From positions 2,976,001-3,040,000 of the forward strand of contig NZ_CP091786.1 of NCBI RefSeq assembly GCF_022024015.1: a stretch of DNA of 64,000 bases, written 5' to 3'. A program made the translations under genes and the position numbers. This DNA is from Prevotella sp. E9-3. Its GTDB lineage: Bacteria; Bacteroidota; Bacteroidia; Bacteroidales; Bacteroidaceae. The notes beneath the pieces are model-generated. The model ran no database searches, was not told where the DNA came from, and saw only the letters and a list, made by a program, of their open reading frames with translations. The first letter of the stretch is position 1, and each line of letters begins with the position of its first letter. This document shows positions 1,633-43,417 of this stretch, one piece after another.

Positions 1633-1710
1633 TACTGAAACAAATTTTGGCCAAAATTTTAGAAATAATGGCCAAAATTGCGAGAATTTTGGCCAAAATT
1701 TATTTCAGTA
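1633..1710. repeat. Phased palindrome array A (TTGGCCAA type)
   Basis: Three units centred on GGCC at 1649-1652, 1670-1673 and 1691-1694, exactly 21 bp apart. The outer units are full AATTTTGGCCAAAATT palindromes; the middle one is the half form AATAATGGCCAAAATT. The flanks TACTGAAA (1633-1640) and TTTCAGTA (1703-1710) are inverted copies, so the whole block is nearly symmetric. It lies 3' of the S9 peptidase gene and overlaps the promoter of the divergent-side metal operon. It has stops and is noncoding. Confidence 0.9.
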
Positions 1711-1734
1711 TCAAAGTAAAAGTATTCTTACGCT

Positions 1735-4221
1735 TTAGAGATTCTTCTTCGGATAGAGCGCATCCCACCATGAAGAATCATCTTTTAACCACTTCTGAAA
1801 CCATGCCATCTGTGTAGCCAGCCATTTCTCACGTTTCTTATAGTCGGTGATGTGGTGGTTCTGCCCCTTCACTTCTACCAAAGCCACCTCACGTCCCAGG
1901 AGTTTCAAGGCTGTAAACATCTGCAGACTCTCTACGATGGGCACGTTGGTATCGTCGGTGCCATGCAACAGCAACAAGGGAGTATGAATCTTGTCGGCAT
2001 TGAACAGAGGCGACTGTTCTACGTATAACTGGCGATGGCTCCAAGGATAGCTGTTGGCCATGCTCACCTCGCTATAGTTATATCCCCAGTAGCCCTCACC
2101 CCAATAGCTGGTATGATTGGCAATACCGGCATGAGAAACAGCAGCGGCAAAGATGTCGGTAACGGTTTGCAGATACTGTGTCATAAAGCCACCATAGGAA
2201 GCGCCCATACAACCGATTTTTTCTTTGTTGATGAAGGGATGAGTCTCACAGATTTTCTTCGTTCCCTCAATAATATCGCCAGCAGGGGTTCCGCCAGGCA
2301 CTACCCCATTCACGGGAGCTCCACCGGCAGTATTCACATGGCGCGAGGCCCAATCCTGACCGAAGCCTGTAGCGCCACTGGGTTGAATGATGTATGCCAC
2401 ATAGCCCAGTGAGTTCCAATACTGTGGAGCATAAGGTGACTCAAAATAGCGACTGGTGGGCGAACAGCCACCGTAATAGTACACAATCATCGGATACTTC
2501 TTTGAAGCATCGAAATCTTTCGGCAGGTACAGACGGCCATAGACGGTGTCGCCTTTTGAATTGACGAAGTTCCAATCCTCACAGGTGCCCAGCTCAGCAT
2601 CGCCCAACACTGTCTTTCCATCAAAGAAACGCACTTGCTTCATGGCTGTCTTTCCGGGCTTAGCATGGATATAGGCCACATAGGCAGAGGCAGGAGCCAA
2701 GGTCTCGTAGCTGAGATAGGCCAGTACACGGCTTTGAGCAGCTAAATCCATACGATAGACATTGTCGCCGTTGGTCTCAAGACGTACTATCTGACCATTG
2801 GCCGGATTGAGTTGATAGAGATGAACAAAGTCACGATTCTCGGCTGTGAAATAAATCATGCCATCCGTGCGCGACCAGTCAACATTGCTCACCGATGGAT
2901 CGAAATCCTTGGTGAGAGGAGTGACCTTCTTTGAAGCAATATCATAGAGGAACAACTCGTTTTCGGTCATACTGGGTGTAATACTCTCTGGCAACTGACA
3001 ACCTATACGGTTGAAAGCCTCGGGATTACCGGTAAAAAGCACTTGCTTAGCATCGGCAGAGAAAGTGGCACCACCCAGAAATTCGGCAGCTGCCAGCAGG
3101 GTATCGACCTTCCACGTGCCTACCTCCATCACCAGATAGTCGGTAACGGTAGTGGGGCGTTTCTCAAGGCGCGAGCGTGAGGTGCCGACAAGCAGTTTGG
3201 TGCCATCCTGCGAGATATCAAGCAGATACTGACCACGATGACCGAAGGTGATGCGCTGGCTAATGCCCGACTTCAAATCGTAGTAGGTCAAATAGCCGCG
3301 ATTGCGCCATCCGGGCTGACGGTCGTCCATCTCCAACACCTGGAACACCTCTTCATCTTCTTTCGGTCCTTCATCCTCGGACGATATGATGAGAAACTCC
3401 TCAGTGGGACTGACGGTATAGCCGCCACGAGGCAGATCATAAGCCATACGAGTACGCTCACCGCTACGGGCATCAACTCTATAGAGCACTCGTTTGTCGG
3501 CTTCCCACACCTCTTCTATATATGCACACGCGCGAGGCAGCCAACGAACATTCTGTGACGGGCGTCCCAACAACTGTTGCGTTTTCACATCACGCAATTC
3601 ATATTCCCAACGGTCTTTTCCCCCACGTTCAGTGGTCTGAAAAACGAGCAGCGCAACGGTACCATCAGCCGAAAGCGAGATATTACGTACACGACGCCCG
3701 TCGGTCAAATCGTGAACCATGTAGGGGTGTTTCTTGCTAAGGGTATAGTCAACAGCCTGCTGGGCATCCAACACAACTTTTACCGAATCGGTATCTTTAG
3801 GTTCTGCCAGGAATTTGATGGCCACGGTGTGATGATCGGGCGAAAGCTTCAGTTCGCCGCCAGCCTCAACACCATCAACGAACACCTTGTAATGCTTCGG
3901 ACCCTTTACTTCCATCTTCATCGTCTGATAGCTGGAGTTGTTCAGAAAGAAACTCAACACGCCCACACTCTTCGTATCGGGAAGTGAGGGCAACAGGGGC
4001 GATTCCCAAACAGATGATTGAGTCGTCTCGTTCAGTCCAAGTGTATTCAATAAGGAACCTTCGTCAAACTTTTGTCCCTTTACATCAACACTATCAGAAA
4101 CAAATGGAGTAGAGACTGCATAGGGACCTGTAAGATTAAAACGGTTGACCTCTGTCTTCTGCTGTGAAAATGCCGAAATAGGCAAGGACAGCAATGCAAA
4201 AAGAAAAATGTTCTTAGTCAT
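1735..4221 (-). CDS. S9-family prolyl oligopeptidase-like serine peptidase, secreted
   Basis: 828 aa. The signal peptide (MTKNIFLFALLSLPISAFS) implies export to the periplasm or surface. Residues about 170-560 are repeat-rich beta-propeller sequence. The C-terminal alpha/beta-hydrolase domain carries the nucleophile motif GASYGG (Ser675), an acid motif HGTDDTNVP and the histidine motif GQNHHIT, in the usual Ser-Asp-His order of S9 peptidases. Expected role is removal of short peptides from proteins or oligopeptides. A second S9 enzyme is encoded at 10365-12566 but differs in sequence and acid motif. The gene stands alone with its own promoter 21 bp upstream. Family assignment is firm; specificity (DPP, acyl-aminoacyl or oligopeptidase) cannot be set from sequence. 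Confidence 0.93.
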   Translation of the reverse strand: MTKNIFLFALLSLPISAFSQQKTEVNRFNLTGPYAVSTPFVSDSVDVKGQKFDEGSLLNTLGLNETTQSSVWESPLLPSLPDTKSVGVLSFFLNNSSYQTMKMEVKGPKHYKVFVDGVEAGGELKLSPDHHTVAIKFLAEPKDTDSVKVVLDAQQAVDYTLSKKHPYMVHDLTDGRRVRNISLSADGTVALLVFQTTERGGKDRWEYELRDVKTQQLLGRPSQNVRWLPRACAYIEEVWEADKRVLYRVDARSGERTRMAYDLPRGGYTVSPTEEFLIISSEDEGPKEDEEVFQVLEMDDRQPGWRNRGYLTYYDLKSGISQRITFGHRGQYLLDISQDGTKLLVGTSRSRLEKRPTTVTDYLVMEVGTWKVDTLLAAAEFLGGATFSADAKQVLFTGNPEAFNRIGCQLPESITPSMTENELFLYDIASKKVTPLTKDFDPSVSNVDWSRTDGMIYFTAENRDFVHLYQLNPANGQIVRLETNGDNVYRMDLAAQSRVLAYLSYETLAPASAYVAYIHAKPGKTAMKQVRFFDGKTVLGDAELGTCEDWNFVNSKGDTVYGRLYLPKDFDASKKYPMIVYYYGGCSPTSRYFESPYAPQYWNSLGYVAYIIQPSGATGFGQDWASRHVNTAGGAPVNGVVPGGTPAGDIIEGTKKICETHPFINKEKIGCMGASYGGFMTQYLQTVTDIFAAAVSHAGIANHTSYWGEGYWGYNYSEVSMANSYPWSHRQLYVEQSPLFNADKIHTPLLLLHGTDDTNVPIVESLQMFTALKLLGREVALVEVKGQNHHITDYKKREKWLATQMAWFQKWLKDDSSWWDALYPKKNL

Positions 4222-4241
4222 ATTAATAAGAATTTAAAGCG

Positions 4242-4249
4242 CAAAGTTA
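4242..4249 (-). promoter_or_regulatory. -7 box (TAACTTTG) of the S9 peptidase gene
   Basis: TAACTTTG on the minus strand, 20 nt before the ATG at 4221, giving a leader of roughly 15 nt. Confidence 0.7.
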
Positions 4250-4284
4250 AGCAATTTATGATTAACAGAACATGTTTTACGTAT

Positions 4285-4342
4285 AATTATAGCTATAATT
4301 TCTCAAATTTTAGCTATAATCTTCACAATTATAGCTATAATT
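4285..4342. repeat. Phased palindrome array B (ATAGCTAT type)
   Basis: Three units centred on AGCT at 4291-4294, 4312-4315 and 4333-4336, again exactly 21 bp apart. The outer units are AATTATAGCTATAATT; the middle unit is AATTTTAGCTATAATC. It sits between divergent promoters of the S9 peptidase and nrdD. The rest of 4343-4515 is AT-rich and I see no gene in it. Confidence 0.9.
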
Positions 4343-4515
4343 TATTGTAAGGGTATTCCTGCAAAGACGGAAAACAACAGCTATAACAGTGCAAAACAAT
4401 AAGTATTATTTCATAAAAATACAAGTTGTATTCTATCAAATTTTTCTGTTACACATTTTATACTTATTAACACAAAATTTTGAGTCATAAATATAACAAG
4501 AACGAATTATTTTTG

Positions 4516-4523
4516 TAACTTTG
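4516..4523 (+). promoter_or_regulatory. -7 box (TAACTTTG) of nrdD
   Basis: TAACTTTG 127 bp upstream of the nrdD ATG, giving a leader of about 120 nt that contains a strong hairpin. Confidence 0.7.
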
Positions 4524-4542
4524 CAAACGAAAAAGTTACCCA

Positions 4543-4588
4543 TTTTGGAAAACTTTTTCAAAACCAAAACCAAAAAAGTTTTCCAAAA
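4543..4588 (+). promoter_or_regulatory. Perfect 16-bp hairpin in the nrdD leader
   Basis: TTTTGGAAAACTTTTT (4543-4558) pairs without mismatch with AAAAAGTTTTCCAAAA (4573-4588) around a 14-nt loop made of AAACC repeats. No U-run follows, so it is not a standard terminator. It may be an operator or an RNA control element; the ligand is unknown. Confidence 0.6.
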
Positions 4589-4650
4589 CAGACAACCTAA
4601 GACCTAAAAAATAGCTCTAAAAAAAAATAAGACAGTAGCAAACTATAACA

Positions 4651-6750
4651 ATGGAAATTAAGAATTTCACCATCACTAAGCGCGATGGATCAAAAGATCG
4701 CTTCTCGCTTGACAAAATTATGAATGCCATCATCAAGGCATTCCAGAGTGTTGACGAACCCTCCGACTTGGGCACAATCTCGAAAATCCTGAGCCACTTG
4801 GATATCCACGAAGGTATCAAGGTTGAGGATATTCAGAACCAGGTAGAGGAGGCGCTGATGCGCGAAGGCTTCTTTAAAGTAGCCAAGTCGTTCATTCTTT
4901 ATCGTCAGGAACATACAGAAGACCGTGAGACACTGGAAAAGATGATGTTCCTTTCAGAGTACATGGAATCAGTGAACGCTGCCACTGGCTCAAAATATGA
5001 TGCCAACGCCAACGTTGAGCACAAAAACATTGCCACACTCATTGGTGAACTTCCAAAGTCAAACTTCATCCGTTTGAACCGCCGTTTGCTGACAGAACGT
5101 ATCAAGAAAATGTATGGCAAGCAGTTGGCCGACGAATATATTGACAAACTGACCCACCACTTTATATATAAGAACGACGAGACATCACTGGCCAACTACT
5201 GTGCCTCTATCACCATGTACCCCTGGCTCATTGGCGGAACACTATCCATCGGCGGCAACTCTACCGCTCCCACCAACCTGAAGTCATACTGCGGCGGTTT
5301 CGTGAACATGGTGTTCATGGTCAGCTCGATGCTGAGCGGAGCTTGCGCCACACCGGAATTCCTGATGTACATGAACTACTTCATTGGCAAGGAATTCGGA
5401 ACAGACTACTGGAAAGATGCCGACAAAGTGGTGGATCTCTCCAACAAGCACCGCACACTGGACAAGGTAATCACCGACTACTTTGAGCAGATTGTATATA
5501 CCTTAAACCAGCCTACTGGCGCACGCAACTATCAGGCTGTGTTCTGGAACGTGGCCTACTACGACAAGTACTATTTCAAGAGCATCTTCGGCGAGTTCTA
5601 CTTCCCCGACGGCACTCAGCCCGACTGGGAAAGCCTGTCCTGGCTGCAGAAGCGTTTCATGAAGTGGTTCAACAAGGAGCGTACAAAGACTATGCTCACC
5701 TTCCCTGTGGAGACCATGGCATTGCTTACCGACAAAGACGGCAACTGCCTTGACGAAGAGTGGGGCGACTTCACTGCCGAGATGTATGCAGAAGGACACT
5801 CTTTCTTCACCTATATGAGCGACAATGCCGACTCGCTGTCGAGCTGCTGTCGTCTACGCAATGAGATTACCGACAATGGTTTCTCATACACTTTGGGAGC
5901 CGGTGGCGTTAGTACAGGCTCAAAGAGTGTGCTGACCATCAACCTGAACCGTTGCATCCAGTATGCTGTGAACCACAAATTGGACTATCTGGAATATCTG
6001 GGTACCATCATCGACTTGTGCCACAAGGTTCAGATAGCCTACAACGAGAATCTGAAGGAGCTGCAGGAACATGGCATGCTGCCACTTTTCGACGCCGGCT
6101 ATATCAACATCAATCGTCAGTACCTCACTATCGGTATCAACGGACTTGTGGAAGCTGCCGAGTTCATGGGACTGAAGATTACTCCCAACGACGAATATCA
6201 GAAATTCGTTCAGGGCATCCTGGGCCTCATTGAGAAATACAACAAGCAGTATCGCACCAAGGAGCTGATGTTCAACTGCGAGATGATTCCTGCCGAGAAC
6301 GTAGGTGTGAAGCATGCCAAGTGGGACCGCGAAGACGGATATTTCGTTCCACGCGACTGTTACAACAGCTATTTCTATGTGGTAGAAGACGATTCACTCA
6401 CCGTGATCGACAAGTTCAAACTGCACGGACGTCCATACATTGAACACCTCACTGGCGGCTCGGCCCTGCATATGAACCTAGAGGAGCATCTGTCGAAAGA
6501 ACAGTACAAGCACCTGCTGAAGGTGGCTGCACAGGAAGGCTGCAACTATTTCACCTTCAATATTCCCAACACGGTGTGCAACGACTGCGGACATATCGAC
6601 AAGCGCTATCTGAAGGAATGCCCCCACTGCCATTCAAAGAATGTGGACTACCTGACACGCATCATCGGCTATCTGAAGCGAGTAAGCAACTTCTCAAAGC
6701 CACGTCAGGAAGAAGCAGCGAGAAGATTCTATGCAACCATGGAAAAATGA
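4651..6750 (+). CDS. nrdD: Anaerobic ribonucleoside-triphosphate reductase, large subunit
   Basis: 699 aa, normal length for class III ribonucleotide reductase, which makes dNTPs from NTPs without oxygen using a glycyl radical. An N-terminal ATP-cone (about residues 1-95, starting FTITKRDGSKDRFSL) gives allosteric overall activity control. The C-terminus shows the Cys4 zinc site (CNDCGH and CPHC) and the radical-loop motif RIIGYL with the glycine near residue 673. It is followed by its activase nrdG. The long leader with a 16-bp hairpin suggests control before or during early elongation. Presence of this pair fits an obligate anaerobe. Confidence 0.98.
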   Translation: MEIKNFTITKRDGSKDRFSLDKIMNAIIKAFQSVDEPSDLGTISKILSHLDIHEGIKVEDIQNQVEEALMREGFFKVAKSFILYRQEHTEDRETLEKMMFLSEYMESVNAATGSKYDANANVEHKNIATLIGELPKSNFIRLNRRLLTERIKKMYGKQLADEYIDKLTHHFIYKNDETSLANYCASITMYPWLIGGTLSIGGNSTAPTNLKSYCGGFVNMVFMVSSMLSGACATPEFLMYMNYFIGKEFGTDYWKDADKVVDLSNKHRTLDKVITDYFEQIVYTLNQPTGARNYQAVFWNVAYYDKYYFKSIFGEFYFPDGTQPDWESLSWLQKRFMKWFNKERTKTMLTFPVETMALLTDKDGNCLDEEWGDFTAEMYAEGHSFFTYMSDNADSLSSCCRLRNEITDNGFSYTLGAGGVSTGSKSVLTINLNRCIQYAVNHKLDYLEYLGTIIDLCHKVQIAYNENLKELQEHGMLPLFDAGYININRQYLTIGINGLVEAAEFMGLKITPNDEYQKFVQGILGLIEKYNKQYRTKELMFNCEMIPAENVGVKHAKWDREDGYFVPRDCYNSYFYVVEDDSLTVIDKFKLHGRPYIEHLTGGSALHMNLEEHLSKEQYKHLLKVAAQEGCNYFTFNIPNTVCNDCGHIDKRYLKECPHCHSKNVDYLTRIIGYLKRVSNFSKPRQEEAARRFYATMEK

Positions 6751-6756
6751 CTTTTT

Positions 6757-6881
6757 TAGTGTAGAGTTGAGAGTTGAGAGTGTAGAGTTTGCTACCGCTC
6801 CGCAGGACACTTTACAATAAAATCCAATAAAAAACCAGAGCGGTAGCAAACTCTACACTCTGCACTCTACACTCTACACTA
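6757..6881. repeat. 44-bp imperfect inverted repeat between nrdD and nrdG
   Basis: Left arm 6757-6800 and right arm 6838-6881 match as inverted repeats at about 40 of 44 positions, with a perfect 24-bp inner stem (6777-6800 with 6838-6861) and a 37-nt loop. The outer part is built from short GTAGAG/TTGAGAG tandem units. The folded RNA would lie inside the nrdDG message and could protect the nrdD mRNA or lower nrdG expression. Confidence 0.8.
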
Positions 6882-6896
6882 CAATTTGAAAGAACA

Positions 6897-7376
6897 ATGC
6901 TCAAATACGTTAATACAGGAATCGTTTTTCAGGAGATACCCGATGAAGTGACACTGGCAATTAATATTTCCAATTGCCCGTGTCGCTGCCCGGGGTGTCA
7001 CAGTCATTATCTTTGGGACGATATTGGCATGCCACTCAACACCGAGGCTATCGATGACTTTATTCAGCGCTACGGCAATGATATCACATGCCTGTCGTTT
7101 ATGGGCGGCGATGCCGATCCAAAAGGCGTATGCTTGCTGGCTGAATACATACACGAGGAATATCCGAATTTCAAGGTTGCCTGGTATAGCGGACGCCTGC
7201 GTGTCCCAGCCGGTATCACCAAGAATGATTTCGACTACATCAAGATTGGACCATACATCCGGCACTTAGGACCTCTCAACAATCCTACCACCAATCAGCG
7301 GCTTTACCGACAGCAAGAAGATGGTACATTCGAGGACATTACCTACCGGTTCTGGCAAAAACAAATGGCGCAGTAA
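6897..7376 (+). CDS. nrdG: Anaerobic ribonucleotide reductase activating protein (radical SAM)
   Basis: 159 aa, the usual NrdG size. The radical-SAM cluster motif is seen near residues 24-31 in NCPCRCPGCHSHYLW, giving C-x3-C-x2-C plus one extra cysteine. This enzyme uses a 4Fe-4S cluster and S-adenosylmethionine to place the glycyl radical on NrdD. It starts 146 bp after nrdD, separated by a large inverted repeat. Its last codons form the left arm of a strong terminator hairpin shared with the convergent kinase gene. Confidence 0.96.
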   Translation: MLKYVNTGIVFQEIPDEVTLAINISNCPCRCPGCHSHYLWDDIGMPLNTEAIDDFIQRYGNDITCLSFMGGDADPKGVCLLAEYIHEEYPNFKVAWYSGRLRVPAGITKNDFDYIKIGPYIRHLGPLNNPTTNQRLYRQQEDGTFEDITYRFWQKQMAQ

Positions 7377-7393
7377 TTGCGCCATTTGTTTTT
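7357..7393. terminator. Bidirectional terminator, nrdG / histidine kinase
   Basis: AAAAACAAATGGCGCA (7357-7372) pairs perfectly with TGCGCCATTTGTTTTT (7378-7393) around a 5-nt loop. T-runs appear on both strands. The left arm is nrdG coding sequence up to its stop. Confidence 0.88.
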
Positions 7394-7412
7394 TATCTAA
7401 CCTATCATTCCA

Positions 7413-8666: not shown

Positions 8667-8707
8667 TGTTTTAGTTATAGTTTAGGCAAATAAAACTTGA
8701 TTGAGTG

Positions 8708-26133: not shown

Positions 26134-27270
26134 TTATTTAGCTCCTTTTCTTCTATTACACTCTCTGCACAACATCTGGCAGTTTTCAATAACTGTCCGT
26201 CCTTTCTCTCGCCACGGCGTAATGTGGTCACCCTCCATAAATTCATAATCAAACTCTCTGCCACAGGCTGCACATTTATGTCCCTGCTGTTCCCATACAG
26301 CTAGTTTTATATCTTCAGGGAATGCTCGCAAATCGAGATAACGTTCGTCACCAGTCAGTACATAAGGTATAATTCCTGATTGACGTTGAATTTCACTATC
26401 ACGCAGAAGTTCAGAAATCTTTTTCCCCAATGCTGCAGTATCCAAGGTTTCAGAACCATATTTATCATATAGCCAAGCCCAATCCAACCCTTTCATTATT
26501 TTCTTAAATTTCTTCAAATCGAAATTCGTGGTAGCCCAGTTTAATACATTCTGAAAATAAGTCCACAAATTATTTGCATTAGGATCGTGCTGATGACTAG
26601 CCATATAGCCTACAACAGTTTGACGGTGACCATTTCTGGTTTCATGGTCAGCAATCCATTCCAAAGCTACTTTCAAGAAATCCTGACGAATAGGAGTCCC
26701 GTTAACGAGGTCTTTCCCTAAACGGGCCGCTCCACTATTGGTTTTTGAGAAGTGGCGCTTTGCATCACTTACAAAAGGACCTGCATAAATTGCATTGTTT
26801 ATTTCTTGGTCATTCAGCGGTTTACCTGCTATATTAATGGTTTTAAACCATTCCAATTTCTCAGATGCTTCTCCTTCACACACGTAAATTGTCAACGGAT
26901 AATCAAGAATTCGTTTCTGAATATCTACAGGCTGATTGAAAAAGTTCTTGAAATCGTACGAGAATTTTCCTTCAACATATTCACATAGCGAGAGGGTGCG
27001 CTGCTGACCATCCATTACTTCATATGGACATTCAGCATCCTCACTACGTTTCACCCAGTACATCACATTTAGTGGATAACCTTGTAATACGGTATGTATT
27101 ACGGCCTGCTGTTCCTTTTCATTATAGATAAACTCACGCTGATAAGGAGGACGGATATCTAGCAGTCCATTATAACCGCGAACACCTTGTTCATCGTTGT
27201 TAACATAGCCTTTAGTTATTTCGCCAACAGTTACCGTAATCGGTTTAATAGTCATCTTGTCGTTATTCAT
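26134..27270 (-). CDS. DUF262 and HNH fusion nuclease, partner of the methyltransferase
   Basis: 378 aa. The N-terminal DUF262 domain (about 15-230) shows IRPPYQREFIY and the ParB/Srx-like nucleotide-binding motif DGQQRTLSL. The C-terminus is an HNH domain with CAAC, GDHITPW, IENCQMLC and CREC zinc/catalytic pieces. DUF262 is the GmrS/GmrD-type domain of modification-dependent restriction enzymes; HNH cuts DNA. The ATG overlaps the methyltransferase stop as ATGA, so both proteins are made together. Most likely the nuclease half of a restriction or anti-phage module. Base composition is visibly AT-richer than neighbouring housekeeping genes. Whether it cuts unmodified or foreign-modified DNA cannot be told. 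Confidence 0.9.
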   Translation of the reverse strand: MNNDKMTIKPITVTVGEITKGYVNNDEQGVRGYNGLLDIRPPYQREFIYNEKEQQAVIHTVLQGYPLNVMYWVKRSEDAECPYEVMDGQQRTLSLCEYVEGKFSYDFKNFFNQPVDIQKRILDYPLTIYVCEGEASEKLEWFKTINIAGKPLNDQEINNAIYAGPFVSDAKRHFSKTNSGAARLGKDLVNGTPIRQDFLKVALEWIADHETRNGHRQTVVGYMASHQHDPNANNLWTYFQNVLNWATTNFDLKKFKKIMKGLDWAWLYDKYGSETLDTAALGKKISELLRDSEIQRQSGIIPYVLTGDERYLDLRAFPEDIKLAVWEQQGHKCAACGREFDYEFMEGDHITPWREKGRTVIENCQMLCRECNRRKGAK

Positions 27271-28343
27271 AGCTTTCTAGGATGTTTGTTACGGATTAAC
27301 ACTCTACTATATTGGCGTTTGCCTTTAATGACTCCGCAACCGCCTCGATCTTCTGGATGAATTTTATAGCCAACTTCTTTAAGCACTGAGCTAGGAGCAG
27401 AAGCTCTTGTATTACCACTAGCTTGCCATATTATCTCAAACTGGTTGGGGTTATATTTATCAAGAAAAGTAATTGGAACGCCCATTATTCCATCATAATC
27501 ACAAGGAATATCTTGAGTTCTACCTACATTAATAGCATTATAATTGTCATATTTAGGATATTCTTCGGGAGAGTATTTACAAACCAAATCTATCTCTTCG
27601 TTCCTCTTGGGAATTTCTAGATTAGTAAACCAATTAACTCCAGAAACTCGTATCATATTATCTCTATGGTCACCAGCAGTAGCAATGTCGTCATATGGCG
27701 AGTAAAAATGTGCTGCAGCTCCTTTGAAACCATACCCTAACCAAACTTCATTAGATTGTAATAGCGGAAATACTTCTCGATATGTAATTGCATTCTGATG
27801 ACCGACTATTAGAAATTTCTTCTCATATTTCATCAACTGTCCTATATATTCACGGAACAGTGAAAAAGGCGGATTGGTCACAACAATATCTGCTTGTTTC
27901 AACAGTTCGATGCACTCTGAGTCTCTGAAATCACCGTTCGCTAATACAGAGCATACATTCTTGTCGTTCTTCAACAGGTATTGAACATCTGATAAGTCCA
28001 CCGCACCATCGCCGTTAAGGTCTTTCACCTCTGTAATCTCAACTTTGTAAGCAATTTTCTTTGGCTCGTTGGAGAAATCTCCAAAGTCTATCATTAGCTC
28101 ATTACCTTGAACAGGTGAACCATTATAACATGTACAAATCAACTTCTTCAAGCCCAACTGATTGAATCGTAAAGCAAAATACTTAAAGAAGTTACTCTCA
28201 TAAGGATCATCGCAGTTGCACAGTACCACCTTGTCGCGGAAGTGTTGCCAATAGTGTTGCAACTCTCGCTCAATGTCTGTCAACTGCGTATAGAATTCAT
28301 CTTTCTTTGCTGTTTTGGCAGCATTTAGGTTTTTATTAGCCAT
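27267..28343 (-). CDS. EcoRI-family adenine-specific DNA methyltransferase
   Basis: 358 aa, slightly longer than M.EcoRI. Family features are DEFYTQLTDIERELQHY, NCDDPYESNFFKYFAL and the catalytic motif NPPFSLFREYI. An unusual loop, DLNGDGAVDLSDV near residue 105, has the Ca-binding pattern of dockerin/EF-hand repeats and lies between the SAM-binding part and NPPF. It should methylate adenine N6 at a short palindrome and protect it from the coupled nuclease. Downstream DUF262-HNH replaces the normal EcoRI-type restriction enzyme. A long leader with a small ORF precedes it. Family is clear; recognition site unknown. Confidence 0.92.
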   Translation of the reverse strand: MANKNLNAAKTAKKDEFYTQLTDIERELQHYWQHFRDKVVLCNCDDPYESNFFKYFALRFNQLGLKKLICTCYNGSPVQGNELMIDFGDFSNEPKKIAYKVEITEVKDLNGDGAVDLSDVQYLLKNDKNVCSVLANGDFRDSECIELLKQADIVVTNPPFSLFREYIGQLMKYEKKFLIVGHQNAITYREVFPLLQSNEVWLGYGFKGAAAHFYSPYDDIATAGDHRDNMIRVSGVNWFTNLEIPKRNEEIDLVCKYSPEEYPKYDNYNAINVGRTQDIPCDYDGIMGVPITFLDKYNPNQFEIIWQASGNTRASAPSSVLKEVGYKIHPEDRGGCGVIKGKRQYSRVLIRNKHPRKL

Positions 28344-28675: not shown

Positions 28676-28814
28676 CAAAAATCTTTTGGAATGAAAAGAA
28701 GTTTAAGCTAAAAACTGCAAATAAGGTTTGTTCTGTTTATAGTTGACGAATAATCTAACAAGTATTGCAGGGCATTTACCAATTTATTATACTGCACTTG
28801 CTATTCCCTTATTT

Positions 28815-28876
28815 TAAATTTTGGCCATTATTTTTCAAATTTTGGCCAAAATTCAAAAAATAATGGCCAAAATTTA
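28815..28876. repeat. Phased palindrome array C (TTGGCCAA type)
   Basis: GGCC cores at 28823-28826, 28844-28847 and 28865-28868, 21 bp apart. The central unit is the full palindrome AATTTTGGCCAAAATT; the outer ones are mirror-image half forms (GGCCATTATT and AATAATGGCC), making the block symmetric overall. Confidence 0.92.
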
Positions 28877-28901
28877 ATTTAGCTTCTACGCATTAGCTCG
28901 C

Positions 28902-28909
28902 TAACTTTG
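28902..28909 (+). promoter_or_regulatory. Orphan -7 box (TAACTTTG) 33 nt after array C
   Basis: TAACTTTG pointing right. The nearest array core is 33 nt upstream, close to the 30 nt seen at array A. No convincing gene follows; a TTG-started frame of 73 codons crosses array D. Confidence 0.35.
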
Positions 28910-29023
28910 CGTTATTACAATATCAATTTGACTCTGTGTGTTCACGAAGAAAACGTTCATAGGATAACAAGTATTAGACAGTGTTTGCCATTCTATGACA
29001 CTACACTTGCTATTCCCTTAGTT

Positions 29024-29086
29024 CAAATTATAGCTATAATTACCAGAATTTTAGCTATAATTTTCGCAATTATAGCTATAATTTAT
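29024..29086. repeat. Phased palindrome array D (ATAGCTAT type)
   Basis: AGCT cores at 29032-29035, 29053-29056 and 29074-29077, 21 bp apart. Outer units are AATTATAGCTATAATT and the middle unit AATTTTAGCTATAATT, the same order as array B. It is homologous in flanks to array C. Confidence 0.92.
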
Positions 29087-29167
29087 TTCAGCTCCGCTTC
29101 TGCTAACTTCCAAAAAGAAAAGAACTGACTTATAATTCTTCGTCTTTTGGAGCACAAGAATAGAAAA

Positions 29168-29232
29168 GGTTATTACAATAAGCGATTTTTTACCAAAAAA
29201 GGTTACTGTAATAAGCGATTTTTTGCAAAAAA
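29168..29232. repeat. Two direct repeats with 33-bp period (AATAAGCGATTTTTT)
   Basis: GGTTATTACAATAAGCGATT from 29168 and GGTTACTGTAATAAGCGATT from 29201, each followed by TTTT and an A-run. The period equals that of the repeats at the other island edge, although the sequence differs. The second copy runs into the terminator of the M16 gene. Confidence 0.88.
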
Positions 29233-34109: not shown

Positions 34110-34111
34110 AC

Positions 34112-36890: not shown

Positions 36891-36966
36891 TCAAGTCAAA
36901 ATCAAGTTAGTATTTCCACCTTTCATCCTCACCGTTTTCACTCTCCACTGTTCCTTTTTTCCCTTT

Positions 36967-39909
36967 TTAGTACCACTGTACAGAGTTTGAATAGCTGCTA
37001 CGCTTGTCGTACTTCAAGGCATCGGCCAAAGTGGAGGCATTGCAACGGAACGAGAAGTTATAACTGGTATAAGGTGACAACACCACTGAGCACGACATAT
37101 TGAAGCAATGCAGGTCGCGGCCCAATGAAGCGGTGGTCATTGATATTTTTTTATTTTCAAAGTCATAACCTGACGAGAAGGATATATTCCAACCATCACT
37201 GAGTCGGATATTACCACTCATATTCAAGTTTTGAGTGAACTTGTAGGGATAGCGCATGGTGCGATAGTTGAACTTCGACTTATCGACATCCTCGCGCATC
37301 GTAACACCATATCCGAAACTCAGCGACCAGGGTAGTGAGAACTTCATATAACCATCCTCATCAGTTTCTGCCTTGCCGGCATTCTCCTTCCTAGCGCCAT
37401 GACGACCCGCATCGAGGTCCTTGTCAATATTGGTCTCGGTGTCCATATCGTCCTCCTCGTCATAGTCCTTCTGGTCTTCGTCTTTTTTCTTGGGGCGCTC
37501 ACCTTTGAGCCAACTGATCAGTTTCTGGACCTTATCACTGCTGATGGTATAGGACAGGTTTTGAGACATTCCCTGGAAGCGTCCCCACTTTCCTTGCTCC
37601 CAATAGGTGGTATGCTCACTCACACGTGGAGTTGCTCCCACTGAATCGGCCTCGTAAACATAACTGGCGAATACGGCGTTCATGTTGAAGGTATAGCTCT
37701 TTGTGAGTTTCAATCGCAAACGCATGCTCAAATCACTCCACGGACGTACATCAGCGGCCATATTATACGACATTGAAGCGCCTAATTCGTCAATCAGACT
37801 GATTTTCTTGAATCCGGTAGAGTCGTCGTCACTCTTTAGCTTCATCTCCACGTTATTGCCGATATCAAAGGCAATACTACCGGTTTTTCCCTTACCAGGC
37901 ACTCCATATAGCTGACCCTGATAGGGAGAGTATTCAACTAGTGTCACATTGCCATTGGCATCTGTACGCTGATAGCTATCGTAATAGCCGTAGCGTGAAG
38001 CACTGAAGTCGGGGGCATAACTGAAACTGATCTGTGGAGAGAACACGTGACGGATGGCATCAATCTTATCGCCAAAAATTTTGCGCGAAGGGATATAGAA
38101 GCCATACAACTTTGTAGAGGCTGACAGCGAGAGGTTCCAGTTGTACACATTATAGAAGCCATAGGTAGTATCAGCCACTTCCTTCATCTCAGTGGCATCC
38201 CAACTACGATAAACCTTGTTGGTATAGGTTCGATCTGTGAAGTTGAACGAAGGATTGATATTGATGTAGTTCAACAGAACAAAATTTCCACTAATGGGGA
38301 TGCTGTGCTGCATTCCGTTTTTCCAGTCCTTTATCAAGTCAGAATGCATAATCTTATCTTCCTTCGTATTGATAGAATTACTGAAATGACCGGTATAGCT
38401 CAACGACAGCTTCTCATACCAGCGTTCCTTACCTGCCATTTTCTTGCGCTTGAAAGGATAGAAGCGCGAGATGCTGATGTTCAGATCGGGGAATGTTACT
38501 GCTATCGAGGAGTCACGCATGTTCTGCGTAAGGTTCATCGTAGTAGAAAGCGACAAACCTATGCTTGAGAAGCCGGTACTATAGCTCACAGACGATGTAC
38601 GTGTGGATTGGGTCATCGCCTGTGGATTATACATTGAAGTAAGGTTGTTGCGCTCGTAACTGCTGGTTGCGAAGTTCACCGATGCCGAGAGGTTTGAATA
38701 AGGATTGGCCTTCGCATCCTGTCGGTGACTCCATTGAATCTTGAAACTAGTCTGCTTGGCATAGTCTGGCATATTCTTCTCGCCCGTGATGGTATTCTGG
38801 TAACTACCATAGAACGAACCTGCATAGCGATAGCGTTTCTTATAGTTGGAAGAGCCTGAAAGGCCCCATGAACCTTTCGTATAGATTTCGCCAATAAGTT
38901 TCAAATCCATCTGATCGCTCAAAGCGAAATAATAGCCGCCATCGCGCAAATAGAAGCCACGTTCGGTCTCGTCTCCATAGGTTGGCATGATGAAACCACT
39001 GGAATAGCTCTTTGTAAAGGGAAAGAAACCATAAGGAATAGCAAACGGAACCGGAACATCACAAACTACCAGATAAGCCGGTCCAAACACTACATCCTTT
39101 CCTGGGCGCACCTTTGCACGGGAAAGAGCAAGGTAGAAATCGGGATGAGGGTCATCACAAGTGGTGTAACGACCATGACGAAGATACAGATTGCCCTCGC
39201 TGTCGCGTTTAGAAAGTTCACTAGTCAGGAATCCGTCTTCCTGCTCAGTATATACCTGCTGAATAAGTCCTTTCTTTGTTTTGAAATTGAAGGCCATCGT
39301 ATCACTCTCATAGGTATCATTGCCCATTTTAAAGACGGGAAGGCCTTTCATTCCACTTAGCTCTGATGTATCGCGAGCACCAGTGGCATGCACCATCGAA
39401 GAGTCAAGGTTCAATGAAATATGCTCACTCTGAAGGTCCATGTTCTGATACTTCACATTCGATGATCCGTAAAGGAAAGCCATTCCGGTACCAGCTTCAT
39501 AAATCAATGAGTCTTCAGCAGAAAAAGTTACGGGCGAGTCGATACCATTCTTTCGCTGTCGGTTCACACTATCAGCCTGCAACGAGTCTTCAATGGCTTT
39601 ATTGTGTTTCCAAATAGCCAGTTCAAGCGAATCCATACCAATGGTATCGGGCCAAACGGTGGCCAGAGAGGCAAGCGAGTCAATGTTCAGACTGTCAATA
39701 AAACCAAGGTGAGGCTGAAGAATGGAAGTGTCGGATAACAGAAATTGAGCAGGAATAAGAGGACGAAGGAACGTATCTTGCAGACTCGTCCCTTGAGCTG
39801 TGCCTCGCATTCTGCTCGCCGAATTCTCGTATCTTGAATTCTCATAGCTCCCTGCCATCACAAATATGAAAGCAAAGAGCAGTAAAAGAATGACCGACTT
39901 TCGTTTCAC
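36967..39909 (-). CDS. lptD: LPS-assembly outer-membrane protein, Bacteroidetes LptD type
   Basis: 980 aa from GTG at 39909. The frame extends 42 codons further, but that part contains the TACTTTTG promoter box, while GTG gives a proper signal peptide (VKRKSVILLLLFAFIFVMAG). Residues about 160-330 are the OstA/LptA-like periplasmic domain (AFLYGSSNVKYQNMDLQSEHI and similar), then an LptD barrel with PYGFFPFTKSYSSGF. The last residues are QWY, an aromatic end typical of outer-membrane barrels. It inserts lipopolysaccharide in the outer leaflet. The GTG lies 5 nt after the -7 box, so the message appears leaderless. Confidence 0.9.
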   Translation of the reverse strand: MKRKSVILLLLFAFIFVMAGSYENSRYENSASRMRGTAQGTSLQDTFLRPLIPAQFLLSDTSILQPHLGFIDSLNIDSLASLATVWPDTIGMDSLELAIWKHNKAIEDSLQADSVNRQRKNGIDSPVTFSAEDSLIYEAGTGMAFLYGSSNVKYQNMDLQSEHISLNLDSSMVHATGARDTSELSGMKGLPVFKMGNDTYESDTMAFNFKTKKGLIQQVYTEQEDGFLTSELSKRDSEGNLYLRHGRYTTCDDPHPDFYLALSRAKVRPGKDVVFGPAYLVVCDVPVPFAIPYGFFPFTKSYSSGFIMPTYGDETERGFYLRDGGYYFALSDQMDLKLIGEIYTKGSWGLSGSSNYKKRYRYAGSFYGSYQNTITGEKNMPDYAKQTSFKIQWSHRQDAKANPYSNLSASVNFATSSYERNNLTSMYNPQAMTQSTRTSSVSYSTGFSSIGLSLSTTMNLTQNMRDSSIAVTFPDLNISISRFYPFKRKKMAGKERWYEKLSLSYTGHFSNSINTKEDKIMHSDLIKDWKNGMQHSIPISGNFVLLNYININPSFNFTDRTYTNKVYRSWDATEMKEVADTTYGFYNVYNWNLSLSASTKLYGFYIPSRKIFGDKIDAIRHVFSPQISFSYAPDFSASRYGYYDSYQRTDANGNVTLVEYSPYQGQLYGVPGKGKTGSIAFDIGNNVEMKLKSDDDSTGFKKISLIDELGASMSYNMAADVRPWSDLSMRLRLKLTKSYTFNMNAVFASYVYEADSVGATPRVSEHTTYWEQGKWGRFQGMSQNLSYTISSDKVQKLISWLKGERPKKKDEDQKDYDEEDDMDTETNIDKDLDAGRHGARKENAGKAETDEDGYMKFSLPWSLSFGYGVTMREDVDKSKFNYRTMRYPYKFTQNLNMSGNIRLSDGWNISFSSGYDFENKKISMTTASLGRDLHCFNMSCSVVLSPYTSYNFSFRCNASTLADALKYDKRSSYSNSVQWY

Positions 39910-39914
39910 GCTTG

Positions 39915-39922
39915 CAAAAGTA
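39915..39922 (-). promoter_or_regulatory. -7 box (TACTTTTG) of lptD, 5 nt from the GTG start
   Basis: TACTTTTG then CAAGC then GTG AAA CG. The arrangement is nearly the same as at 1604-1618 (TAACTTTG, CAGC, GTG AAA AG). Confidence 0.65.
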
Positions 39923-40024
39923 CGATTTTTTAATGAAGAATAAAGAGCGAAATACGAAGTTTTTTGTATTCTCACCTTATTAATTAACAAAGATTCGTAT
40001 TTCCAGAATCTATCAGGTTGTTTC

Positions 40025-40522
40025 CTACCCCTCAAATTGTTCTGCCCAATGCAGGAATTTTACTACGCCATCATGTCCGAATTTCTCTAAACTCTGCGCT
40101 ACTTCAAGCACACTTCTGACGTGGTCAACATCCGATTTCGAATAGAACTTATCAGCATAGCAAACAAGTTGTTCTTCAAGTGTTTCGGGTTCAAAGCCTG
40201 GCAATCCTGTTCCTGTGTGGCGCTCACAAACCCTTGCATGACGCTCAAAGCCTTCTTTTCTTAGCAATTCAGCCCCAATCTGCCCATGGCGCAAGTAGGG
40301 TTCTTCCCCAAAACAGTGGATACTTGGAGCGTTGCACCAACGTATGCCGATATCGTGAAGCATGGCAGCCTCTTCAACGAACTGCGTCTCAACAGGAAGT
40401 TCAGGGTGTTTTTTACAGATAGCCAGACAGCGGTCGGCCACCTGACGGGAATGTTTCAGAAGAACACGACGGAGTTCATCATCCTCCGGATAATATTTGC
40501 AGATAAGCGACAAGTAGTCCAT
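40025..40522 (-). CDS. HD-domain phosphohydrolase
   Basis: 165 aa. The HD motif is seen in EEAAMLHDIGIRW with upstream H (KHSRQVADRC) and downstream Asp in CYADKFYSK, giving the metal ligands of small HD hydrolases acting on nucleotides or nucleotide second messengers. It is single-domain with no signal peptide. It lies upstream of lptD, separated by 115 bp that hold the lptD promoter. Substrate is unknown. Confidence 0.88.
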   Translation of the reverse strand: MDYLSLICKYYPEDDELRRVLLKHSRQVADRCLAICKKHPELPVETQFVEEAAMLHDIGIRWCNAPSIHCFGEEPYLRHGQIGAELLRKEGFERHARVCERHTGTGLPGFEPETLEEQLVCYADKFYSKSDVDHVRSVLEVAQSLEKFGHDGVVKFLHWAEQFEG

Positions 40523-40533
40523 TAGATTTAAGA

Positions 40534-40577
40534 AAAGTGTTCCTAAAAGTTAAGGAAAGTATTCCTAAGAGTTAAGA
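40534..40577. repeat. 22-bp tandem repeat, two copies
   Basis: AAAGTGTTCCTAAAAGTTAA from 40534 (22 bp with GG) is followed directly by AAAGTATTCCTAAGAGTTAA (40556-40577 with GA). Three differences between the copies. Located between the HD gene start and the carboxylase terminator. Confidence 0.85.
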
Positions 40578-40583
40578 AAGAAA

Positions 40584-40616
40584 ATCCCTAAGGCCTGTTA
40601 TCGAGACCTTAGGGAT
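40584..40616 (-). terminator. Terminator of the carboxylase-type gene
   Basis: ATCCCTAAGG (40584-40593) pairs with CCTTAGGGAT (40607-40616). On the minus strand TTTTCTTTCTT follows. Confidence 0.75.
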
Positions 40617-40626
40617 ATATTACTGA

Positions 40627-42405
40627 TTATTTTTCACGCTCAATCCAAGCCAGCACATCGCCCTTACGGACTTTTGCGCCCTGCTTAGCCTGTACGTCAA
40701 CAAGCTTACCGCCGAGTGCAGCTGGTACAGGAACAATCTCGCCCCACTTCTCCTGCAGATAGCAGAATGTCTGACCTTCTTTATAAGTCTGACCAATGAA
40801 TGGCTCAATGCATGGAGCGCACTCACCGTCGCCATTGAACTCATAGAAAATCTGACCTGCTGAAGGAGCCACCAAAGCGTCGGCCTTAGCATGTTTCAAG
40901 GCTGCAATCTCTTCTGCTGAGACCTTACCGCCGCCAAGTTTTGCATCTTTAGCTTTCTGCAGATCAGCGAGGAATTGTTTCTTTGCCTGACCGCTCTTGA
41001 AAGGACGGTACTGTTCGGGGTGCATAGCCAGTTCGAAGAGTTCTTCGTTGTCCTGTCCGTAGTCCCATCCGTTCTCGTCCATTTCCTTCTTGAATCCTTC
41101 AAGCGCATTTGGAATGAGTGTGTGAGGATCAGCATCGGTGAACTCACGCTTCTGAGATTTTGCAAGTTCGACCAATTCAGGATCGATAGTGCCAGGCACT
41201 TTACCGCTCTTACCGAGAATCATGCCCCAGATAGCATCGTCCATCATTACGTAGCGACCCTTGCCCTGCTCCATAGTGAGAAGGTTCATCAGAGCAATGT
41301 TCTTGGTATATTGAGAGAAAGGAGTTACCAATGGGGGATAACCAACCTTTGGCCATACATACTCTACCTCGTTGAAGAGTTTCACCAGCATATCGTCCAT
41401 GGTGAGAGCAGTCTCACCCTTCTTCTCGCGCAGTTTGTTGATCATGGTCTGGATAGGACCAAGGTCGGCCATCATCGAGCCCATCATACCACCAGGCAGT
41501 CCGCAACCAAGCAACAGAGACGACATGTGCTTGTTGGCAGGATTAATGAAATAGCCCAACCATTCGTCGATAAACTCCTGTGTGAGGCTACGAGCCTGCA
41601 TATAGGCATTCATATTGATATCTTCCACCTCAAAGCCCTCGTTCTTCAGCATCGACTGAACAGAGATGATATCGGGATGAACCTTACCCCAGCTCAGAGG
41701 CTCGATAGCAGTATCGATGATATCAGCGCCATTGTTACAAACTTCGAGGATTGAAGCCATTGACAATCCGGGGCCTGAGTGTCCGTGATACTGAATGAGA
41801 ATATCGGGATGCTTGGTCTTGATAGCCTTGGTCAGTGCGCCCAGCATGGCAGGCTGTCCGATACCAGCCATATCCTTCAAGCAGATTTCTTCTGCACCGG
41901 CAGCAATCACCTCGTCAGCAATACGGCTGTAATATTCAACAGTATGCACAGGCGATGTTGTGATACAAAGTGTGGCCTGGGGAATCATACCGGCAGCCTT
42001 TGCCCACTTGATAGAGGGGATAATATTACGTGTATCGTTCAAACCACAGAAAATACGGGGAATGTCAACGCCTTGAGCTTTCTTCACTTTGTACATCAGT
42101 TCGCGAACGTCGTCGGGCACTGGATACATGCGCAAAGCGTTAAGGCCACGATCCAACATGTGGGTCTGAATACCAACTTCATTGAAAGGCTTACAGAAAG
42201 CGCGAACGGCTTCGTTTGGATTCTCGCCTGCCATCAGGTTCACTTGCTCAAACGCTCCACCATTGGTTTCTACACGGGCAAAACATCCCATGTCAATAAT
42301 AACCGGCGCAATACGTGCCAACTGATCCTTACGTGGCTGGAACTTACCGCTCGACTGCCACATGTCACGATAGACAAGACTAAACTTAATCTTTTTCTTG
42401 CTCAT
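40627..42405 (-). CDS. Carboxyltransferase/biotinyl-type subunit (oxaloacetate decarboxylase alpha or pyruvate carboxylase B type)
   Basis: 592 aa. A TIM-barrel carboxyltransferase domain (about 1-300) has the metal Asp in VYRDMWQS, the active-site lysine in ICLKDMAG and the HxH pair in YHGHSGPG. A PycOadA-type conserved domain follows to about 480. The C-terminal 75 residues have a biotinyl/lipoyl fold pattern (GQTYKEGQTF to GAKVRKGDVLAWIE), but the usual EAMKM biotin site is replaced by LQEKWGEI. It may interconvert pyruvate and oxaloacetate, or drive sodium export with partner subunits, none of which is adjacent. Whether the only nearby lysine is biotinylated is open. Confidence 0.88.
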   Translation of the reverse strand: MSKKKIKFSLVYRDMWQSSGKFQPRKDQLARIAPVIIDMGCFARVETNGGAFEQVNLMAGENPNEAVRAFCKPFNEVGIQTHMLDRGLNALRMYPVPDDVRELMYKVKKAQGVDIPRIFCGLNDTRNIIPSIKWAKAAGMIPQATLCITTSPVHTVEYYSRIADEVIAAGAEEICLKDMAGIGQPAMLGALTKAIKTKHPDILIQYHGHSGPGLSMASILEVCNNGADIIDTAIEPLSWGKVHPDIISVQSMLKNEGFEVEDINMNAYMQARSLTQEFIDEWLGYFINPANKHMSSLLLGCGLPGGMMGSMMADLGPIQTMINKLREKKGETALTMDDMLVKLFNEVEYVWPKVGYPPLVTPFSQYTKNIALMNLLTMEQGKGRYVMMDDAIWGMILGKSGKVPGTIDPELVELAKSQKREFTDADPHTLIPNALEGFKKEMDENGWDYGQDNEELFELAMHPEQYRPFKSGQAKKQFLADLQKAKDAKLGGGKVSAEEIAALKHAKADALVAPSAGQIFYEFNGDGECAPCIEPFIGQTYKEGQTFCYLQEKWGEIVPVPAALGGKLVDVQAKQGAKVRKGDVLAWIEREK

Positions 42406-42448
42406 AGTTAATTCAAAATACCTTCAAAATGTATTAAAAATGCGGGTG

Positions 42449-42456
42449 CAAAGGTA
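42449..42456 (-). promoter_or_regulatory. -7 box (TACCTTTG) of the carboxyltransferase gene
   Basis: TACCTTTG on the minus strand, 43 nt before the ATG at 42405. Confidence 0.68.
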
Positions 42457-42529
42457 CAACAATTTCCTGAATAGGCAATAAAATTGTGCTTTTTATGGCT
42501 TTTTTCTTCTTCATTGAATGCTTTTTGCT

Positions 42530-42537
42530 TACCTTTG
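42530..42537 (+). promoter_or_regulatory. -7 box (TACCTTTG) of the lipoprotein gene
   Basis: TACCTTTG, 23 nt before the ATG at 42561. It matches the divergent box at 42449-42456 exactly. Confidence 0.68.
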
Positions 42538-42560
42538 TCGCCGAAAACAAATAAAGAGAC

Positions 42561-43313
42561 ATGAAAAGATTTTCATTTCCATTGATTTTGACCGCTCTGC
42601 TGATGATGGCTTGTGGCGGTCAGCAGGAAACTGCGCCAATAGACAACAATGGTGTTGACTCGCTGTCAGCTCCACTTGAAGGTGACTCTACCATTTACGG
42701 ACTGGCCTGCGACGGATGCACTGACACCATTCTGGTGTTCCTACCTATTGACGACATTTCGGCCAACCCCGACACGTTCAACATTTTGAATGCTACGCGC
42801 CGCCGTCACATTTTCGGGCGCCTGAGTACTGGCGACAAAGTTGCCGTAGTGCGCAACGCAAAGGATTCAACCGTAGCCGACTATGTAATTGACATGGAAA
42901 ATCTTCGCGAGACGTGGTGCTACCAGGTGATGCCAACCCTTCATGTCAGGGCCGACATGGAAGGACATTCTGAGAAGCAGATCGTGAAAAACCTTCCCGA
43001 CTCAATCCAGCAACTACTCTCTATTCCCCGTGAATATAGCATTCATATAAAAGGCGATCATACTGTGCGTTCCATAGGAACCTTCAAATGGAATGAGGAC
43101 GAAGACAATGTGATAGACTATCCTCGCATTAAGCGCTATGGTCAATGGCATTTATTCAACGGTCGTCTTCTTCTCACTGAGATGGCAATGGACTCGCTGG
43201 GACAGAATCATCCTGTAAGCACCGATACCGCTGAATTCATTTTAATGAATCGTGATACACTGATTCTGCAATTCAACGACGGATTACGTCATTATTATCC
43301 AAAGAAAGAGTAA
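42561..43313 (+). CDS. Lipoprotein of unknown function
   Basis: 250 aa. Signal sequence MKRFSFPLILTALLMMAC gives a lipobox with Cys at residue 18, followed by a flexible GGQQE stretch. The mature part is mixed alpha/beta with an ending YYPKKE. No catalytic motif is recognised. It has its own promoter and is followed by palindrome array E and a terminator. The segment GLACDGCTDTILVFLPIDD (about 49-67) could hold a CxxC redox or metal pair. Confidence 0.82.
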   Translation: MKRFSFPLILTALLMMACGGQQETAPIDNNGVDSLSAPLEGDSTIYGLACDGCTDTILVFLPIDDISANPDTFNILNATRRRHIFGRLSTGDKVAVVRNAKDSTVADYVIDMENLRETWCYQVMPTLHVRADMEGHSEKQIVKNLPDSIQQLLSIPREYSIHIKGDHTVRSIGTFKWNEDEDNVIDYPRIKRYGQWHLFNGRLLLTEMAMDSLGQNHPVSTDTAEFILMNRDTLILQFNDGLRHYYPKKE

Positions 43314-43356
43314 CAGGAAAATGCGAATTACACATCAACGGTAATTCTCTCATTTT

Positions 43357-43417
43357 GAATTTTGGCCATTATTTTTCAAATTTTGGCCAAAATTCAAAAA
43401 ATAATGGCCAAAATTTA
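43357..43417. repeat. Phased palindrome array E (TTGGCCAA type)
   Basis: GGCC cores at 43364-43367, 43385-43388 and 43406-43409, 21 bp apart. Sequence between and around the cores is nearly identical to array C over about 60 bp (half form, full palindrome, mirrored half form). Unlike arrays A-C it lies between convergent genes next to a terminator. Confidence 0.92.

Follow-up and report, generated by a model that had tools for sequence, protein, structure and literature searches.

Dispersed palindrome triads with phased flanks in Prevotella sp. E9-3: candidate nucleation sites for an HU-family protein

What purpose is served by the short palindrome arrays that recur in the genome of Prevotella sp. 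E9-3? Five of them lie in the 64,000-nucleotide stretch analysed here (the window; positions 2,976,001-3,040,000 of the single 3,733,400-base contig), where a first-pass annotation described a dispersed family of three-unit arrays with exact 21-bp phasing. The answer favoured here, with moderate confidence and from sequence comparison, is that the triads would act as nucleation sites for a dedicated HU-family protein that coats DNA in ~22-bp steps, regulates its own gene and organises the chromosome except at the terminus. The window arrays are the following.

1643..1700, no strand: GGCC-type triad, three 16-bp palindromic units with a 21-bp period
4285..4342, no strand: AGCT-type triad
28817..28874, no strand: GGCC-type triad, paired with the array at 29026..29083 (start-to-start distance 209 bp)
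29026..29083, no strand: AGCT-type triad, paired with the array at 28817..28874
43358..43415, no strand: GGCC-type triad, flanked by convergent genes

All five arrays are real, with coordinates slightly refined from the first-pass annotation, and the 21-bp phasing is exact in all ten intervals. The unit motif given there, AATTNNRGCYNNAATT, proved too strict: it matches nine of the 15 units, the other six having one or two changed bases (for example AATTTTGGCCATTATT and AATAATGGCCAAAATT). The 3.73-Mb genome has 124 copies of the exact unit AATTWTRGCYAWAATT and none of the reversed pattern, far above chance. Among 300 other genomes of the family the same unit is found in seven, with one copy each; the backward control is about equally frequent, so these matches are attributed to chance. 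A genome-wide search with R1, a sequence-only covariance model built from 19 arrays, scored 150 of 1,929 candidates and reached the noise level, with a sharp gap between intact arrays (at least 50 bits) and remnants (at most 25 bits). The resulting census spans 868,846 bp, made up of the window, 20 dispersed stretches and the surroundings of hits, and contains 69 arrays at 58 loci, arrays less than 500 bp apart being merged into one locus. Each array consists of three 16-bp palindromes, and all 69 keep the 21-bp spacing exactly, so that the five-member family becomes one of 69 members with invariant spacing within this genome. A sequence-neutral triad scan of the same sequence recovers 65 triads, compared with 69 by motif. 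The AGCT type accounts for 39 arrays and the GGCC type for 30, with no GGCC/AGCT mixture; four AGCT-type arrays have AGCC or GGCT as the middle core. No intact two-unit or four-unit array was found in the census sequence. Two exact single-unit copies exist, at 155,578 and 2,801,669, the former with flanks shared by the triad at 137,983; it looks like the product of a 42-bp deletion between direct repeats in such an array. Degenerate remnants also occur, for example at 241,636 (two unit-like copies) and 3,534,549.

The family is not confined to this genome. R1-type arrays (E = 10−4) are present in 16 of 200 genomes of the genus, that of E9-3 included, in a scan with stricter filters and 23 candidates scored per genome. 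An exact two-unit pattern, which misses arrays with other cores, retrieved 61 stretches from 84,980 species genomes and had no match in viral contigs. All 61 are titled Prevotella, Prevotellaceae or Xylanibacter brevis, save L260 (Bacteroidaceae bacterium), which is ~97% identical to the E9-3 genome; it lies within G495, a genome with just that locus and one weak match, and is perhaps a contaminant from the E9-3 species. In the other-species loci, chosen by the two-unit match, 61 of 66 arrays have three units, four have two and one has four (54, four and one of 59 when L260 and near-copies are removed). The earlier statement that the two core types are never mixed therefore holds within E9-3 and fails elsewhere: in other species the core R and Y vary (AGCC, GGCT), some arrays mix cores (e.g. 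L270 and L250), and TGCA, CTAG-like and GTAC-like cores appear. A different set belongs to G351, where many arrays are built on GATTTTTGGCCAAAAATC, GATTTATAGCTATAAATC or GATTTATTGCAATAAATC; this genome gives 116 R1 matches (both strands, E = 0.1), and 16 distinct triads are present in the loci read.

The placement of the E9-3 arrays is also non-uniform. Simple gene calling (coding fraction 85%) puts two of the 69 arrays within a called gene and the remainder in intergenic sequence, between co-directional (30), convergent (16) or divergent (17) gene pairs, with four having a neighbour outside the sequence covered; as all gene orientations are represented, placement is neither promoter-only nor terminator-only. 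The largest array-free gap measures 883,474 bp, from 1,453,117 to 2,336,591 (P = 1.2 × 10−5 under uniform placement), and has a single weak R1 match inside it (E = 0.1, at 1,778,807). The antipode of the contig start, at 1.867 Mb, lies 28 kb from the gap centre at 1.895 Mb. GC skew in 10-kb windows changes sign at ~1.62 Mb and is noisy to ~2.04 Mb, the other change falling at the contig ends. No dif site was identified, and the gap is read as the terminus region as placed by the skew.

The informative region is not the triad alone but ~250 bp, since the flanks are phased as well. The 116 outer flanks, of which 101 remain after dereplication at 50% identity and are unrelated in sequence, prefer TATTR at +18, +40 and +62 (weaker at +84) and YAATA at +28, +50 and +72 (weaker at +94). 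Together these form a degenerate TATTR-N5-YAATA dyad that repeats with a 22-bp period for ~100 bp on each side. On a scale to 10 with a base of 3.1, it scores 6.0, 6.3, 5.7 and 4.4 at +18, +40, +62 and +84, and returns to baseline at +106. Phasing persists in the 14 flanks that start no more than 15 bp from a predicted gene (4.8, 6.0, 5.1 and 4.3, base 2.9). The pattern is a property of the whole flank set, and in the window the dyads are accordingly expected, rather than shown flank by flank, at the following positions.

1545..1642: left flank of the 1643 triad, phased TATTR-N5-YAATA dyads expected
1701..1798: right flank of the 1643 triad, dyads expected; extends into the adjacent gene
4187..4284: left flank of the 4285 triad, phased dyads expected
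4343..4440: right flank of the 4285 triad, phased dyads expected
28719..28816: left flank of the 28817/29026 pair, phased dyads expected
28875..29025: inter-triad stretch of the 28817/29026 pair, 151 bp
29084..29181: right flank of the 28817/29026 pair, phased dyads expected
43260..43357: left flank of the 43358 triad, phased dyads expected
43416..43513: right flank of the 43358 triad, phased dyads expected

Because the motif was derived from the E9-3 flanks, the flanks of other species carry particular weight. In 118 of these the peaks again fall at +40, +18 and +62 (z = 11.3, 9.8 and 8.3), along with others at the array edge (+1 to +6). Dereplication and exclusion of L260 leave 89 flanks with z = 9.6, 9.3 and 7.7 at the same positions, the remaining peaks being confined to that edge. 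The 25 flanks from G351, with its different unit sequence, have +40 at the top (z = 7.3), and +62 and +18 (z = 3.8 and 3.1) fall below +3, +29 and +1 (z = 5.0, 4.1 and 3.9). The phasing of coding flanks may reflect either a target-site preference or later selection. A comparison with orthologs on this point (29 rows each) gave flank scores of 23 and 24 for E9-3 and means of 13.4 and 12.4 (maximum 18) for the relatives, but these are too distant, and minus-strand rows were left unturned, so that many of those rows are not true controls. Within the triads, AATT-N5-AATT dyads across the spacers have the same 5-bp centre as the flank dyads, which points to a single dyad lattice through ~250 bp with a 21-bp period inside the triad and a 22-bp period outside it. 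The AATT centres are 9 bp apart across the 5-bp spacer, as are the TT and AA of the flank dyads.

Runs of four to nine TATTR-N5-YAATA dyads with a ~22-bp period also occur away from triads (14 of 18 merged runs), at 1322773, 1488289, 1559438, 1601815, 1625981, 1682070, 1781239, 2072777, 2309032, 2441534, 2984750 (window 8750), 3417983, 3610198 and 3733315. Eight of the 14 are in the terminus zone without triads, which makes up 39% of the sequence examined. Some triad-free runs are chance, since shuffled sequence yields six runs; those of greater length could represent another class of site for the same protein.

A candidate for that protein emerges from the genes near arrays, which were compared across species and include four families recurrent in three genomes. 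One of the four encodes an HU-family protein and has an array directly upstream in each of the three. In E9-3 this is P0001 (129 residues; gene at genome positions 3,221,371-3,221,757, outside the window), which lies behind its own triad. P0001 matches PF18291 (HU-HIG; E = 2.7 × 10−20) and PF14848 (E = 3.4 × 10−10), both past the cut-offs, and structure matches place it in the HU fold; a search of solved structures by sequence produced no credible match (best E = 0.07). Orthologs of at least 54% identity are found in G000, G321, G450, G347, G400, G358 and G351, that is, in seven of the 16 array-positive genomes and in none of the 184 others of the genus (the next best genome reaches 50% identity; Fisher P = 5 × 10−9, uncorrected for relatedness and taking the array and ortholog searches as covering the same 200 genomes). 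R1 matches are more numerous in these seven carriers than in the nine array-positive non-carriers (lower-bound counts; Mann-Whitney P = 0.003). G413, a non-carrier that is 99% complete and has homologs of only 37-42% identity, shows few intact arrays alongside several that are two-unit or degenerate, as expected if arrays decay without the HU-family protein.

The array is upstream of all seven ortholog genes as three palindromes at 21 bp, including those with altered units (GATTTATTGCAATAAATC-type in G351 and CAATTTATGCATAAATTG-type in G358). A TAnnTTTG box, which we take to be the Bacteroidota −7 element, precedes the start of the first unit by 27-28 bp in five of the seven genes, by ~17 bp in G358 and by ~38 bp in G351; such a position, shortly after a promoter-like box, is consistent with an operator for autorepression. 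For 51 homologs the upstream sequence was scanned over as much as 330 bp (less for three of them, with only 26 bp for one). Arrays are present there at the seven orthologs and also at one distant homolog each in G307 and G476. Lag-21 signals upstream of the G206 and G487 homologs were judged to be simple repeats. G307 and G476 have no R1 match in the genus scan, yet they contain arrays of a new core: the sequence-neutral scan found two triads in 403 kb of G307 and four in 364 kb of G476, with CTAG-type or GTAC-type cores, and none in three shuffles of each. One of the four in G476 is the gene-linked triad, and that of G307 is below the scan threshold. Relatives' argB and M16-peptidase loci (226 kb) yielded no triad in the same scan. 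When the 51 homologs are placed on a tree, the array-linked genes, nine in all, fall into two groups and require two changes, compared with 8.5 for shuffled labels (0 of 500 as low); a single origin of the linkage is seen in 12% of the bootstrap replicates. The scan of ten recurrent neighbour proteins revealed no further recurrent gene with a DNA-binding profile. The small HU-family protein is thus the likely cognate protein of the arrays, as judged from these associations.

Of the kinds of bound protein proposed in the first-pass annotation, a nucleoid protein gains most from the HU-family gene that carries its own array and from the terminus exclusion; binding itself, spreading and the purpose of the complexes are what we infer, in the following form. 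The array would be a high-affinity nucleation site for P0001, dimers of which would load on the triad at intervals of two helical turns. P0001 would then extend outward over the weak TATTR-N5-YAATA dyads in ~22-bp steps, coating or wrapping ~250 bp per array. At its own gene, the array downstream of the promoter-like box would mediate autorepression; elsewhere, outside the terminus, the complexes might serve chromosome architecture, segregation or division timing. The chromosomal role is the least certain part of this proposal.

Paired arrays bear on the lattice. The E9-3 genome has eleven two-array loci, each with one array of each type (11 of 11), and in eight the spacing is exactly 151 bp (a gap of 93 bp), with both flank lattices in register; the remaining pairs are spaced 117, 209 and 387 bp. 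In G351 three measured pairs (129, 129 and 195 bp) have the same residue modulo 22, and each combines a GGCC with a non-GGCC array; coordinates indicate one further pair at ~127-129 bp and two (~97 and ~88 bp) out of register. Sequence constraint is indicated by L260, which has one difference in 446 columns around its array pair and 92 in 2,946 elsewhere (Fisher P = 2.6 × 10−5, with boundaries set after viewing the alignment). In L251 and L265, from two species, an orthologous array has three changes in 58 bp and the noncoding left flank has diverged. The window pair at 28817/29026 is adjoined by genes for an EcoRI-type adenine methylase (PF13651) and a GmrSD/HNH-type nuclease (window 26134-28343).

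Several array loci belong to larger copied segments. The intergenic regions at ~901-902 kb and 3162-3163 kb are an inverted duplication, 96% identical over the 600 bp compared, with an array pair in each copy. A shared repeat (L082, L083, L084 and L103) surrounds the arrays at 137983, 155578, 162768 and 918813, which are AGCT-type in some copies and GGCC-type in another; this suggests that the array type may have been replaced within one flank. Independent origin of the 58 conserved bp, 69 times over, is very unlikely.

A number of observations weigh against P0001 as the protein that nucleates on the triads and spreads from them. The eight 93-bp pair spacers are mutually 43-97% identical (closest: 901,177/3,162,129, 97%; 1,086,211/1,139,407, 87%; 2,384,309/2,658,364, 80%), so that duplication of a larger segment may account for the shared register, and five pairs in other fetched loci are off the 22-bp register (the L260 pair being the same locus as an E9-3 pair). 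The genomes are related, so the co-occurrence tests are not independent. No close ortholog is found in nine array-positive genomes. Two of them are incomplete (G396 at 55%, G406 at 78%), but the completeness of G331 and G413 exceeds 90%. Five of the nine have at most four R1 matches, and G406 has at least 23. A second gene family, DUF3332, also adjoins arrays in three genomes:

L084:3252-3800, L246:3863-4411 and L247:4812-5360: DUF3332-type gene beside a triad (Pfam assignment based on two of the three members)

The inter-strand arm predicted for P0001 is short relative to typical HU and IHF proteins, and wrapping by proline kinks may therefore not apply. IHF, a heterodimer, shares the HU/IHF superfamily fold with P0001. 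Its kinks are 9 bp apart (PMC8421141, in the part available), equal by inspection to the 9-bp dyad spacing of arrays and flanks. The IHF site described there has an asymmetric consensus, WATCARNNNNTTR, and spans 35 bp (PMC8421141), whereas the arrays are symmetric with a 21-bp repeat; a 35-bp site also exceeds the 21-22-bp period of the lattice.

The strongest competing explanation, though an unlikely one, is that another sequence-specific protein (TetR-like, ParB-like or winged helix-turn-helix-like, perhaps as two paralogs, one per core type) binds the arrays for nucleoid occlusion or partition, with the HU-family gene as a regulated target. Palindromes with a specific 8-bp core suit a helix-turn-helix dimer, and cores differ between species. 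To our knowledge, 100-bp phased degenerate flanks are not expected of a ParB-type sliding clamp. Some 70 dispersed palindromic sites absent at the terminus recall those of Noc of Bacillus subtilis (~70) and SlmA of Escherichia coli (24-52), which are similarly under-represented around the terminus in the excerpted account (PMC4726725). Noc belongs to the ParB family and SlmA to the TetR family (PMC4726725), whereas the array-linked protein here is of the HU family, within the ten neighbour proteins scanned. The Noc site is a 14-bp palindromic consensus, and rigid triads with phased flanks are unmentioned for Noc in that excerpt (PMC4726725). The HU-family gene is moreover the one gene that is array-linked in all seven carrier genomes, and the scan of recurrent neighbours offers no other DNA-binding candidate.

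It is improbable that the arrays serve a global transcription regulator, whether of the HU family or not, as operators for the control of some 60 genes. The conserved distance between promoter-like box and array at the HU-family gene would fit, and several other arrays are near TAnnTTTG boxes by eye; however, convergent placement is as common as divergent, and a quarter of the chromosome is avoided.

Equally doubtful is a selfish dispersed repeat (of the miniature inverted-repeat transposable element, MITE, or repetitive extragenic palindromic, REP, kind), or part of a larger one, with no host function. The many near-identical intergenic copies, their species-specific amplification, the related spacers of the 151-bp pairs and the common flanks of four arrays in the DFJI records of another species favour it. 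An all-against-all flank comparison indicates real homology for some loci, with much of the signal coming from neighbouring unmasked arrays. However, target-site duplications showed no excess over shuffled pairing (69 arrays, 462 boundary combinations, boundaries up to 26 bp from the array), and on this ground the MITE model was set aside. The earlier suggestion that the units might be fragments of transposon ends thus finds no target-site signal; since a larger segment has been copied at some loci, a dispersed-repeat origin may still apply to part of the family. Most outer flanks (101 of 116) are unrelated yet phased, the score gap separates intact copies from remnants, the L251/L265 array has been kept between two species, and the terminus is avoided. 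REP/BIME (bacterial interspersed mosaic element) repeats are likewise dispersed and intergenic, as are the BrickBuilt MITEs of Porphyromonas gingivalis in the part of the source available (PMC5771137). The arrays differ from both kinds in the three units that are fixed in this genome, the lack of detected target-site duplications, the terminus exclusion and the linkage to the HU-family gene.

A role as RNA (terminators, attenuators or leader hairpins) is highly improbable: the array within the 5′ leader of the HU-family gene and the exact reverse complementarity of units 1 and 3 in 21 of 30 GGCC-type and 22 of 39 AGCT-type arrays would suit it, but it was dropped because the spacers lack paired covariation (matches lie below the shuffled mean in both types) and an Rfam search of the window returned no family at the gathering score, and arrays also stand between divergent genes.

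A precedent for nucleation by P0001 on the triads followed by extension is HTa of Thermoplasma acidophilum, also of the HU family, which leaves histone-like nucleation-extension footprints in which sequence may matter more for nucleation, according to the available excerpt (PMC6877293). HTa prefers GC-rich sequence, and dispersed palindrome arrays are not described for it there (PMC6877293). A broader version of the proposal, put forward tentatively and with more doubt than confidence, is sequence-programmed chromatin: species-specific triads would seed an HU-family fibre whose path is written for ~100 bp on each side as a 22-bp DNA code, even through coding sequence, with protein and cores co-evolving and the fibres marking all of the chromosome but the terminus.

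Chromosome organisation in the Bacteroidota is poorly known. Judged by search listings, no paper describing these arrays was found in the open-licence PMC literature, and they may represent a mode of bacterial chromosome organisation not described before. If the proposal is correct, the arrays would define nucleation sites for a dedicated HU-family protein and their flanks a readable extension code, and the system might be a Bacteroidota counterpart of chromosome marking of the Noc and SlmA type. The natural losses and changed specificities across species would then make histone-like, sequence-programmed bacterial chromatin open to test.

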